47,160 nt of DNA from Brevinematales bacterium. Its GTDB lineage: Bacteria; Spirochaetota; Brevinematia; Brevinematales; GWF1-51-8. The notes under the pieces are model-generated. The model was given only the letters and a program-made list of their open reading frames with translations. It did not search any database and was not told the origin of the DNA. The translations under genes were made by a program, and so were the position numbers. The stretch spans positions 1-47,160 of the forward strand of contig JABLXV010000021.1 in NCBI GenBank assembly GCA_013177895.1. The letters run 5' to 3'. The stretch's first letter is position 1. Every line of letters begins with the position of its first letter. Below, one piece after another: positions 17,479 through 22,261 of this stretch.

Positions 17479-18561
17479 ATGTCTGACGATAAAGATAAAA
17501 AGAGTTCGGGTGGCGCACAGCACTCCGGCGGGCATGGCGGTAAAGCAGGGGCTAAAAAGAAGAAGCCGTTAACAGGGCGGGAAAAAGCCGCGGTATTCCT
17601 TGTTTCCGTCGGCCCGGAAGTTTCCGCCGATATATTCAAGCATCTCAAGGAGGACGAGGTCGAAGAACTCACATTCGAAATCGCCCGTATCGATAAAATC
17701 GATCCCGAGGACAGGGACACGGTGCTGATGGAGTTTCAGGAACTCATGATGGCGCAGGACTTTATAGTTACAGGCGGCGTCGATTATGCCCGCGAAGTCC
17801 TCGAACGCGCGCTGGGTACGCAGAAAGCGGTGGATATCATCAACCGTCTGACATCCTCCCTTCAGACGAAACCGTTCGACTTCATCCGCAGAACAGACCC
17901 CGCGCATCTCATCAACTTCATCCAGAACGAGCATCCGCAGACGATCGCGCTGATCCTGTCGTATCTCGATCCGCAGAAGTCCGCGCAGATTCTCTCGTCT
18001 CTGCCGCACGAAATACAGGCGGATGTCGCGAAACGTATCGCGACCATGGACCGCACCTCGCCGGAAATTCTCCGCGAAGTAGAACGTGTGCTCGAGCGTA
18101 AACTCTCCACTCTCGCGAGCGAAGACTTTACCTCAGCCGGCGGTATCGATGCCGTGGTCGCCATCCTGAACAACGCCGAGCGTTCCGCCGAACGCAATAT
18201 CATCGAAGCTCTCGAAGAAGACGATCCCGATCTCGCGGAAGAAATCAAGAAGAAAATGTTCGTATTCGAAGATATCATTACTCTCGACGACCGTTCCATC
18301 CAGCGCGTACTGCGTCATGTGGATATGGGCGATCTCGCGAAGGCGCTGAAGGCGGTCGATCCCGAAGTGCAGGATAAAATATTCAGGAACATGTCGAAGC
18401 GCGCCGCGCAGATGCTCCGTGAAGATATGGAATACATGGGCCCGATCCGTTTGAAGGATGTGGAAGAAGCCCAGCAGAAAATCGTTAATATTATCCGCAA
18501 ACTCGAAGAACAGGGCGAAATCGTTCTTTCCAGAGGCGCGGAAGACGAGATTATCGTTTAG
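17479..18561 (+). CDS. fliG: Flagellar motor switch protein FliG
   Basis: A 360-residue FliG, the rotor protein that receives torque from the stator. A lysine/glycine-rich N-terminal extension (about residues 1-30) precedes the FliF-binding domain (GREKAAVFLVSVGPEVS). Next come the ARM-M region with EHPQTIALILSYLDPQ and the C-terminal torque helix region (MFVFEDIITLDDRSIQRVLR, then RAAQMLREDMEYMGPIRLKDVEEAQ). All domains are intact. The start follows GGAGG and lies 15 bases after fliF, so the two genes are tightly coupled. Confidence 0.97.
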   Translation: MSDDKDKKSSGGAQHSGGHGGKAGAKKKKPLTGREKAAVFLVSVGPEVSADIFKHLKEDEVEELTFEIARIDKIDPEDRDTVLMEFQELMMAQDFIVTGGVDYAREVLERALGTQKAVDIINRLTSSLQTKPFDFIRRTDPAHLINFIQNEHPQTIALILSYLDPQKSAQILSSLPHEIQADVAKRIATMDRTSPEILREVERVLERKLSTLASEDFTSAGGIDAVVAILNNAERSAERNIIEALEEDDPDLAEEIKKKMFVFEDIITLDDRSIQRVLRHVDMGDLAKALKAVDPEVQDKIFRNMSKRAAQMLREDMEYMGPIRLKDVEEAQQKIVNIIRKLEEQGEIVLSRGAEDEIIV

Positions 18562-18627: not shown

Positions 18628-20283
18628 ATGCCAGAGCCGGCAAAGAGACATGCTAAAATTCTAAGAAGCGGCGAATATTCGCTGGATCCGCATAAGTTTG
18701 TTATCCAGACTCCAAAAATCTTTAAAAGGACGAAGGAGCAGGAGATAGACGAATCGACCCAGCGTATTGACGAATTGCGCACGGAAATAGCCGATCTCGA
18801 GAAACAGATAAACGAGAAGAATGAGAAAGCCGATCACGACGCTGAAGAAATCCTTTTAAAGGCGGAACAGGAAGCCGAGAGGATTGTCGATAACGCGGAG
18901 AAGAATGCGTTCGAACGCGTGCAGAAATCGCTCGACGATAAAGAAAACGTCATACTCGAGAAGAACAGCGAGTCCGATCAGATCCTTGAGGTAGCGAAAA
19001 CCGACGCGCAGAAGATTGTCGACGGATCGCATACCGAAGCCGAGGGTATCCGCGAGGAAGCCCGGAAACAGGGCTTCGAACGCGGGATGGAGGAGGGATT
19101 TCAGGAAGCGAAGCTCGACGTCCAGCATATGGTCGAACGCCTGCATTCCATTGTCGCCGCGACCCTCGAAGAACGTGAAAATATCCTCATTCACAGCGAA
19201 CGGCAGGTTCTCAATCTGGTTATCACGATGGTCGAAAAAGTGGTCAAGCGTCTGACCGCCGAAGAGAAGGAAGTGGTCATCAATAATGTCAAAGAGGCGC
19301 TTCAACTTATACGCGGCTCGATGCGTGTTTATATCCATGTCAATCCCGAGGATTACCACTATACTATCCGCCATAAGGAAGAGTTTATCTCGATGATCGA
19401 GGGGAAACCCGAAGTGAAATTCTTCGAGAATCCCAAAGTCGACCGCGGGGGAGTTTATATCGAAACCGATACCGGAGAGGTAGACGCGACAATCGCATCG
19501 CAGCTGAACGATATTATCGATAAGATTAAATTCTATATGCCGATACAAGTCACATCCGATATAACCAAAAAAAAAATAACACAGTCCCCTCAACCTCAGA
19601 CGTTTGAGGACGAACTGAACAAGATGGAAGCGGTCGACAGCAAAGCGGCGGAAAGCGCCGCGGCTATCCCTAATTTCAGGAGGGATTCGCAGGGCAATCC
19701 CTCGTCGATAACCCAATTCGGCAGTGTGCCGAAGGAGCCGCCAGCGGCCGCCCCGGTTGCGCAGCCCGCGCCTCCAGCGCCGCAACCAACTGTCCAGTCG
19801 GCGCCGATACAGACACCTCCGCCTGCACAGCAACCGAAGCCTATAGAGCAGACACCGGTACAGTCGCCTCAGCCTGTGCAGCAAGCGCCCGCGCCGCAGC
19901 CGAAGCCGACGCCTCAACCCGCGCCGGTGAAAAAATCGCCCGAGCAGATCGAGGAAGAGCGGAAACGCCGGATCGCGGCGGATGCGTTAAAGCCGGTAGA
20001 TAATGCGCAGTTGAACACGGGGGACGTTCCCGATTTTGTCGGGAGCCCGCCTGAAGTGAAAATGCCGTTACCGAAGCAGGAACCGCCTCAGCCGAAAGCC
20101 GAACCTAAAACCGGGGACGCACCTGTGAAAGAAGCGCAGGTAGTCGAGGCTCCGTTATCCGACGACTTTTTAAACTCCATCGATGATATAGAAATTCCCG
20201 ATATCGATATATCGAATCTTCAAGACGACGACGGCGGAGAGAACGATCTAAGCGAGACTAAAGCTCAAGTCGAGAGCGGTTAG
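18628..20283 (+). CDS. fliH: Flagellar export ATPase regulator FliH with long C-terminal tail
   Basis: A 551-residue protein; FliH homologues are usually about 230-320. Residues 1-35 resemble the spirochaete-type N-terminus. Residues about 35-165 form a charged coiled coil. Residues about 166-305 are the conserved FliH/YscL C-terminal domain (ERQVLNLVITMVEKVV, then VNPEDYHYTIRHKEEF and DRGGVYIETDTGEVDATI). After residue 316 comes a 235-residue proline/glutamine-rich, probably disordered tail ending in an acidic stretch (LSDDFLNSIDDIEIPD). FliH partners FliI and docks export cargo at the switch. The junction between domain and tail is an A10 tract (19567-19576); see findings. ATG follows GAGGTGA. 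Confidence 0.93.
   Translation: MPEPAKRHAKILRSGEYSLDPHKFVIQTPKIFKRTKEQEIDESTQRIDELRTEIADLEKQINEKNEKADHDAEEILLKAEQEAERIVDNAEKNAFERVQKSLDDKENVILEKNSESDQILEVAKTDAQKIVDGSHTEAEGIREEARKQGFERGMEEGFQEAKLDVQHMVERLHSIVAATLEERENILIHSERQVLNLVITMVEKVVKRLTAEEKEVVINNVKEALQLIRGSMRVYIHVNPEDYHYTIRHKEEFISMIEGKPEVKFFENPKVDRGGVYIETDTGEVDATIASQLNDIIDKIKFYMPIQVTSDITKKKITQSPQPQTFEDELNKMEAVDSKAAESAAAIPNFRRDSQGNPSSITQFGSVPKEPPAAAPVAQPAPPAPQPTVQSAPIQTPPPAQQPKPIEQTPVQSPQPVQQAPAPQPKPTPQPAPVKKSPEQIEEERKRRIAADALKPVDNAQLNTGDVPDFVGSPPEVKMPLPKQEPPQPKAEPKTGDAPVKEAQVVEAPLSDDFLNSIDDIEIPDIDISNLQDDDGGENDLSETKAQVESG
19567..19576 (+). promoter_or_regulatory. A10 tract, candidate transcriptional slippage site in fliH
   Basis: Ten consecutive A bases encode Lys314-316 and the first base of the next codon. 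Losing one A creates TAA immediately after Lys316; gaining one A leads to TGA about 11 codons on. Either gives a FliH of normal length. Slippage on A9-A11 is known in other bacterial genes; here it is inferred. Confidence 0.5.
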
Positions 20284-20302: not shown

Positions 20303-21646
20303 ATGATCGAATTATTTGAAAAATACCAGAATGCCGCCGACCGTGTAGTACCTATTAAAACAATCGGTCACGTATCCAACCTCGTAGGTATATCCATAGA
20401 ATCCATCGGCCCGTTTTCATCGGTAGGCGACCTGTGCGTCATCGATAACGAGAACGGCGACCCTGTACGCGCCGAAGTGGTGGGCTTCAAGAATAAGAGC
20501 ACGCTTGTGATGCCGCTCGGGGAAGTCCGTGGTATCGCGCCGGGGGTGAAGATCACCAATCTCGGGCGAAAGATGGAGGTAGCGGTCGGGCCGGAACTCC
20601 TCGGCCGGATGATCGGCGGGGACGGACTCCCTATCGACGGGCTAGGCCATATCAAAACAAAAGAGAAACGTCCCGTGGACGGCCCCGCGCCGTCGGCATA
20701 TACCCGTAAACGTATCGCTGAACCGATCGCGACCGGTATCCGCGCCGTCGACGGACTGATGACGGTGGGCAAAGGCCAGCGGATGGGGATATTCTCCGGC
20801 AGCGGCGTCGGGAAATCGACCCTGCTGGGGATGATCGCCCGGAACACCAGCGCCGATATCAATGTGATCGCGCTGATCGGCGAACGCGGGCGAGAAGTCC
20901 GCGACTTTATCGAACGCGACCTCGGCGAAGAGGGGCTTAAACGCTCGGTGGTGGTGGTGGTGACATCGAACGAACCCCCGCTCCTACGTATCCGCGGCGC
21001 GTATGTGGCGACCGCTATCGCGGAGTACTTCCGCGATCAGGGCAAGGACGTGATGTTCCTGATGGACTCGGTCACCCGTTTCGCGATGGCCCAGCGCGAG
21101 GTCGGCCTCGCGGTCGGCGAACCCCCCGCGACGAAGGGATATCCCCCCAGCGTATTCTCCAACCTCCCGCGCCTCCTCGAACGCACCGGTACGTCGGACA
21201 AAGGCTCGATCACCGCGTTCTACTCCGTGCTGGTCGAGGGTGACGATATGAACGAACCGATCTCAGACGCGGTACGCGGTATCCTCGACGGGCATCTCAT
21301 GCTCGCGCGCAATCTCGCGCATAAGAACCATTACCCCGCGATCGACGTGCTCGGCAGTATCAGCCGTCTGATGACCGAAATTGTCAACGACGAGCATAAA
21401 AGTCTCGCCAATAAAATGAAGGAAGCGATGGCGAACTACCGTGAGGCGGAAGACCTCATCAATATCGGGGCATACGTGCAGGGGAGCAACGCGAAGATCG
21501 ATTTCGCGATATCGAAGATCGAGAAGATCGAGAGCTACCTCCGGCAGGGCGTGTTCGAAAAGTCGGATTACCAGTTGTCGTTCGACGCGCTGAAGGCGAT
21601 CTTCGAGGAGAAGAAGCCCCGTTACGCCGGGATGGGGATGAGGTAG
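20303..21646 (+). CDS. fliI: Flagellum-specific export ATPase FliI
   Basis: A 447-residue FliI, the hexameric ATPase of the flagellar type III exporter, related to F1 beta. The Walker A motif GSGVGKST is at residues 166-173, the Walker B region is VMFLMDSVTRFAMAQREV, and the family block GYPPSVFSNLPRLLERTG is present. Length and domains are normal. GGGAGGGG precedes the ATG, and the gene starts 20 bases after fliH. Its last codons (RYAGMGMR-stop) are echoed 629 bases downstream beyond a toxin-antitoxin pair; see findings. fliJ, usually next, is absent here. Confidence 0.97.
   Translation: MIELFEKYQNAADRVVPIKTIGHVSNLVGISIESIGPFSSVGDLCVIDNENGDPVRAEVVGFKNKSTLVMPLGEVRGIAPGVKITNLGRKMEVAVGPELLGRMIGGDGLPIDGLGHIKTKEKRPVDGPAPSAYTRKRIAEPIATGIRAVDGLMTVGKGQRMGIFSGSGVGKSTLLGMIARNTSADINVIALIGERGREVRDFIERDLGEEGLKRSVVVVVTSNEPPLLRIRGAYVATAIAEYFRDQGKDVMFLMDSVTRFAMAQREVGLAVGEPPATKGYPPSVFSNLPRLLERTGTSDKGSITAFYSVLVEGDDMNEPISDAVRGILDGHLMLARNLAHKNHYPAIDVLGSISRLMTEIVNDEHKSLANKMKEAMANYREAEDLINIGAYVQGSNAKIDFAISKIEKIESYLRQGVFEKSDYQLSFDALKAIFEEKKPRYAGMGMR
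21620..21646 (+). repeat. fliI 3' end, left copy of a 27-base direct repeat
   Basis: The last 27 bases of fliI (CGTTACGCCGGG through the TAG stop) match 22276-22302 at 22 of 27 positions. The two copies bracket the toxin-antitoxin pair like the arms of an integrated cassette. Confidence 0.75.
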
Positions 21647-21743: not shown

Positions 21744-21938
21744 ATGAAAGTTGAAACTATGATAAAAAAAGAAATCGAGGACCTGCCGGAAGAAATACAA
21801 ACGGAAATATTGGATTATGTCATGTACCTGAAGCAAAAAAAAGTATCTGAAAAGCAGGAAACCGCCTTACTGTCCGAAAACATACTGAAACGCGATTGGC
21901 TTCTTCCGGAGGAAGACGAAGCATGGAAAGATTTATAA
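21744..21938 (+). CDS. Antitoxin, DUF2281/VapB-like
   Basis: A 64-residue antitoxin partner. Its core (IEDLPEEIQTEILDYVMYLKQKK) is the short helical DUF2281-type signature seen in antitoxins, followed by a polar linker and a C-terminal acidic/aromatic peptide (RDWLLPEEDEAWKDL) likely to wrap the toxin. An open frame extends upstream to 21687, but ATG 21744 has GAGGA at the right distance. The last 16 bases overlap the toxin gene, the usual arrangement for translational coupling. Confidence 0.75.
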   Translation: MKVETMIKKEIEDLPEEIQTEILDYVMYLKQKKVSEKQETALLSENILKRDWLLPEEDEAWKDL

Positions 21939-22261
21939 GCGGCGATGTGGTGATAGTCCCGTTTCCTTTTTCGGATTTATCGTTCGTAAAACGTCGCCCC
22001 GCCCTGGTATTAAAATCTTTGAACGGCGACGATTATATTCTATGTCAAATTACCAGTAAAACCTCTGACGACCGCTATTCTATTAATTGTAAGGAATCCG
22101 ATTTCAAGGCAGGTGGATTGAAGAAACCGAGTAATATCAGAATAAACCATTTATTTACTGCTGAAAAGTCTCTCATTCTCTATAAAGCAGGCAGTCTTAA
22201 AAAGGAATTTATAAATAATATTATCAATAGCGTGATTCGACTTTTTCAGGAAGAAATATAA
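21923..22261 (+). CDS. PemK/MazF-family toxin
   Basis: A 112-residue PemK/MazF-like protein: SGDVVIVPFPFSDLSFVKRRPALVL is the diagnostic N-terminal barrel segment, followed by YILCQITSK and a C-terminal helix. Members are sequence-specific RNases that cleave mRNA, held in check by the antitoxin. The start at 21923 overlaps the antitoxin gene by 16 bases; the frame also stays open upstream (to 21896) without a ribosome binding site. Composition is more AT-rich than fliI. The gene lies inside the 27-base repeat pair derived from the fliI end. Confidence 0.85.
   Translation: MERFISGDVVIVPFPFSDLSFVKRRPALVLKSLNGDDYILCQITSKTSDDRYSINCKESDFKAGGLKKPSNIRINHLFTAEKSLILYKAGSLKKEFINNIINSVIRLFQEEI

Follow-up and report, generated by a model that had tools for sequence, protein, structure and literature searches.

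The window, a stretch of 47,160 nucleotides, is contig C21 of the source genome (G000), a 3.6-Mb MAG that is 95% complete and has Brevinematales and Spirochaetes MAGs as its closest named relatives. It carries a flagellar operon in which fliF and fliG lie ahead of a fliH gene and fliI behind it (FliF, FliG and FliI by Pfam).

18628 to 20283, forward strand: fliH, an open reading frame of 551 residues matched by Pfam PF02108, with fliG (17479-18561) on its 5' side and fliI (20303-21646) on its 3' side
18733 to 19083, forward strand: long N-terminal coiled-coil helix, residues 36-152, in the AlphaFold2 model (pLDDT mostly 62-92)
19129 to 19512, forward strand: FliH core domain, residues 168-295 (Pfam PF02108, E=3.8e-24)

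The Pfam match to FliH scores 85.5 bits against a cutoff of 24.1, and similarity to FliH across the order extends to about residue 310. A comparison of the FliH sequence with the PDB gave no match, and the AlphaFold2 model, built from 4 sequences only and poor overall (pLDDT 53), was read for coil and disorder only. At 551 residues this FliH is long, as FliH frames in the phylum mostly measure 300-345 residues, and the first-pass annotation was right to call its length unusual. Directly 3' of fliI, the flagellar neighbourhood also holds an open reading frame for a MazF/PemK-like toxin (window positions 21896-22261; PF02452, E=5e-9).

The additional length lies in a C-terminal tail:

19567 to 20280, forward strand: Pro/Gln-rich tail of about 235 residues (residues 314-551), genus-specific and predicted to be mostly disordered
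19930 to 20052, forward strand: conserved tail island, residues 435-475, KKSPEQIEEERKRRIAADALKPVDNAQL, seen in the alignment and in dN, with a predicted helix at residues 438-452
20161 to 20214, forward strand: conserved acidic C-terminal motif DDFLNSIDDIEIPDIDIS, residues 512-529, seen in the alignment

Tail identity is 76% in the sister genome DeMMO6_14 (core 88% identical) and 53% in GWF1_51_8, a more distant genus member (core 81% identical). The corresponding dN/dS values are 0.14 and 0.16-0.21, the latter a rough estimate because dS is saturated. The tail is under purifying selection, has conserved islands and genuinely belongs to the protein. A reading of it as frameshifted junk was rejected, since homologous tails occur in three genomes at dN/dS of about 0.14-0.21. 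In the AlphaFold2 model, with its poor overall quality, the tail is coil throughout except for the island helix and a turn at residues 512-515. A Pfam search of the tail returned nothing at E<=5, and among 21 genomes the DDFLNSIDDIEIPDIDIS motif had no convincing match outside the fliH genes of the genus. The tail is a selected, probably disordered extension, which would probably serve for binding or tethering partners in the vicinity of the FliI/FliH export complex.

The tail begins at a run of ten adenines:

19567 to 19576, forward strand: A10 tract, encoding Lys-Lys-Lys-Ile (codons 314-317) in frame; candidate RNA polymerase slippage site
19577 to 19579, forward strand: TAA met after the loss of one A, giving a 316-residue product
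19605 to 19607, forward strand: TGA met after the gain of one A, giving a 326-residue product that ends ...KKKNNTVPSTSDV

Much of what the first-pass annotation had read from this tract holds: the A10 is in frame at the position given, within the 551-residue reading frame; losing one A brings a stop straight after Lys316; gaining one brings a stop about 11 codons on, ten residues beyond Lys316; and either slip yields a FliH of core length. Its placement of the tract at the exact end of the FliH domain has to be loosened, as the tract is near that end, 4-18 residues beyond the core. The slip products terminate in ...TKKKNNTVPSTSDV when one A is gained and in ...SDITKKK when one is lost. By chance alone, both slipped frames reach a stop in 12 codons or fewer at 24% of fliH codon positions, so the geometry by which both slips lead to an ordinary size is weak evidence. 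An assembly error as the source of the A10 was rejected, because an independent MAG has the identical in-frame tract.

With E. coli RNA polymerase, slippage is undetectable on runs of fewer than 8 A (PMC6260861). Insertions outnumber deletions in runs and increase exponentially as the run lengthens (PMC5574713). The A11 of tssM1 slips at about 20% (PMC4256274), and A10 tracts in dnaX are thought to slip (PMC3711429). The fliH A10 exceeds the length at which runs become capable of slippage (about 8 or more A; threshold from PMC6260861), and its slipped frames give products of defined length. We infer that the A10 would act as a slippery sequence at the hinge between core and tail, and that probably a minor fraction of transcripts is out of register. 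These would mostly carry one additional A (326 residues) and sometimes one fewer (316 residues). The slipped FliH would have the usual length and keep its core whole, and the A10 may be tolerated at this site because truncation there spares the core. The tract is not required for the tail, and regulation of the slippage is no more than a possibility. We therefore favour, with moderate confidence, a reading in which the 551-residue tailed FliH is the main product and the A10 leaks a minor amount of normal-length FliH. If the polymerase behaves like those studied, the commonest truncated form would be the 326-residue product of a gained A, and not the product of a lost A that the first-pass annotation stressed.

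How unusual such a run is can be judged from base rates, which were taken from 445 kb of the genome (380 gene-length ORFs) and from genome-wide pattern searches. In the 445-kb sample, genes contain one sense run of at least nine A, that of fliH, against about 12 expected from synonymous shuffles; for runs of at least ten A the figures are one, again fliH, and about 3.3. AAA makes up about half of the Lys codons in this sample, and one of 53 KKK triplets is spelled A9. Runs of at least nine A in genes of the source genome are evidently selected against, given one observed where some 12 were expected. In two comparator genes with conserved lysines, AAG or other codons interrupt the A9 tract in all relatives whose site could be read (one site in GWF1_51_8 was not readable with the motif used).

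The entire 3.6-Mb genome has four runs of at least ten A, located in fliH, in a membrane protein on contig C40, in an IS3-like transposase on C65 and, as an intergenic A13, on C30. The transposase run is an in-frame A10 (YKKKRR; G000:C65:17486-17495, L056) between the helix-turn-helix and downstream parts, which is where recoding is usually located in IS3 elements. Another A10 (G001:C1:17372-17381, L042) was seen in an open frame of more than 900 residues, in the linker that joins a Mu-like portal domain to a Mu F domain.

The relatives give a divided picture. DeMMO6_14 has an A10 at the same codons, with slip products again of 316 and 326 residues, at a synonymous divergence between the two fliH genes (dS about 1.1) that includes the surroundings of the tract. 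GWF1_51_8 has a homologous tail in which the three lysines are replaced by RRR (CGA-AGG-CGC), with no A-tract. The tail is thus independent of any switch, and the charge is kept where the tract is not; judging by these alignments, the feature that persists at the site is a basic triplet (KKK or RRR). The first-pass annotation had tied the tail to the switch and proposed a comparison of tract and stops in relatives; DeMMO6_14, with the A10 and both stops kept, agrees with it, and GWF1_51_8, the other of the two informative relatives, shows the very tail without a tract that the annotation had named as refuting its idea. The other genus members with fliH have products of 526 and 567 residues, and fliH is absent from the 73% complete assembly of the fourth member, G002. 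Brevinematales outside the genus are without the A10 and the long tail and carry unrelated extensions of 20-120 residues; in family f4 of the order FliH measures 392-429 residues. A FliH homologue from a different family of the phylum sits within a 764-residue open frame (G053:C37), so FliH may have acquired long extensions or fusions on more than one occasion.

In a set of 40 orthologue pairs, 256 of 368 Lys AAA codons are unchanged (70%), a rate that puts the chance for three such codons at 0.34, and 16 of 62 sense A6-A7 runs survive whole (26%, both directions counted). Retention of the A10 in one relative is within chance (about 0.1-0.35) and not significant. Once the genome-wide avoidance is counted, it slightly favours constraint, and the preservation of the A10 with both slip stops over a dS of about 1.1, despite that avoidance, hints at positive retention.

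These hints bear on programmed transcriptional slippage, in which the A10 would have been kept in the lineage of the source genome and DeMMO6_14 to provide a fixed ratio of tailed to tail-less FliH. It would account for identical products in two genomes whose codons around the tract have diverged synonymously, and for an A10 where runs of at least nine A are strongly avoided and both A9 comparators are broken. Export systems offer precedents, and the two forms would be made as tau and gamma are from Thermus dnaX and truncated forms from Shigella spa33 and mxiA. However, GWF1_51_8 is tailed without the tract, the A10 is kept in only two genomes, and both its retention and the slip-stop geometry are at levels that chance can supply. 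We consider programmed slippage possible but unlikely. The related proposal, that slippage in this lineage yields a functional mix of tailed and ordinary FliH and so sets the number of FliH/FliI complexes with a tethering tail, is likewise doubtful, and marginally more so; if true, this two-form FliH would be the first of its kind. The two-form switch of the first-pass annotation is supported in part, by the slippery length of the tract, the core-length products and the retention in DeMMO6_14, and is weakened by the tractless tail of GWF1_51_8 and by retention at chance level.

It is quite improbable that slippage has no consequence at all, the three lysines being required where the core ends and spelled AAA by chance while the polymerase slips negligibly. 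The change from KKK to RRR in GWF1_51_8, which conserves charge and not the tract, fits this explanation, as does the share of AAA among Lys codons; yet runs of similar length slip in every bacterium cited, and the genome avoids runs of at least nine A as though they were costly. Homopolymers can also vary during replication, but phase variation, with genomic tract length differing between cells, is very unlikely, since the in-frame A10 is present in both independent MAGs, neither assembly has another length, and ten adenines are short for such a mechanism. A programmed -1 ribosomal frameshift to the 326-residue form is hardly credible, for although A-AAA-AAA is a known slippery heptamer, the RNA 3' of the tract does not exceed shuffled sequences in structure (z +0.49 in the source genome, -0.88 in DeMMO6_14), and no Shine-Dalgarno-like stimulator was visible on inspection of the sequence just 5' of the tract.

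The A10 of fliH can be set beside that of the C40 membrane protein (G000:C40:26920-27906, tract G000:C40:27657-27666; L152/L054, L054:1501-1510; orthologues L153-L160). This protein has about 308-329 residues, with the A10 between a soluble part and two C-terminal hydrophobic segments. Its orthologues (n=9) were recovered by protein searches blind to the tract, and seven of the nine, spread over two families, have the A10: all four genus members and all three f2 genomes. The two in f3 have an A9 and a broken tract, respectively. The f2 orthologues keep the A10 although their proteins are about 30% identical and the codon phase differs (IKKKL, xxA-AAA-AAA-AAA, versus FKKKI, AAA-AAA-AAA-ATx). 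No other internal in-gene A10 is common to all three f2 genomes, and the G002 assembly yielded no second exact A10. In the genomes with this A10, slips either way stop within 0-7 codons, and the resulting form would lack the hydrophobic segments. A gene with an MCP signalling domain lies directly 3' and abuts the A10 gene in the genus; in the source genome it encodes a 616-residue membrane protein (L161:7910-9757, G000:C40), which is kept in DeMMO6_14 and GWF1_51_8 and was not found beside the f2 and f3 orthologues. On this pattern, the C40 A10 appears a strong candidate for a conserved transcriptional slippage site and a better one than fliH, which is without such depth of conservation. A tract that outlasts about 70% amino-acid divergence exemplifies what stronger evidence of slippage looks like.

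Among known systems, Thermus thermophilus dnaX (PMC5009743, PMC3711429) resembles fliH in having poly-A inside one long ORF with near stops in both other frames, and in slipped transcripts that give a shorter protein without the C-terminal region (tau/gamma). In dnaX, slippage has been proven at a ratio close to 1:1 and other taxa have the tract as well, whereas for fliH slippage is predicted from the sequence and the tract is missing in one of two comparable relatives. In Citrobacter rodentium tssM1 and Yersinia tssM3 (PMC4256274), poly-A likewise gives two lengths of a secretion-system protein, by truncation at 15-25% in tssM3; both were demonstrated experimentally, and the tssM1 tract differs in having 11 A and in that slippage restores the frame. 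Shigella flexneri mxiA, spa33, spa13 and mxiE are also secretion or export genes with homopolymer slippage, as cited within PMC4256274 and PMC5009743; according to the same citations, mxiA and spa33 give truncated products, and the genes are different ones, belonging to a virulence type III system. The literature searched, in the parts that touch on the subject, holds passing mentions only, and no case of slippage in the FliH family was found there. With spirochaete FliH proteins (PF02108), the present one shares the core domain, the long coiled coil and the fliG-fliH-fliI order, and differs in its tail with conserved islands, which is confined to this genus.

Even without slippage, the FliH tail conserved within this spirochaete genus is a new accessory region. 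If functional slippage is real, one flagellar export gene would provide two forms of FliH without a dedicated regulator, and the slippage seen in Shigella type III secretion would extend to flagella.
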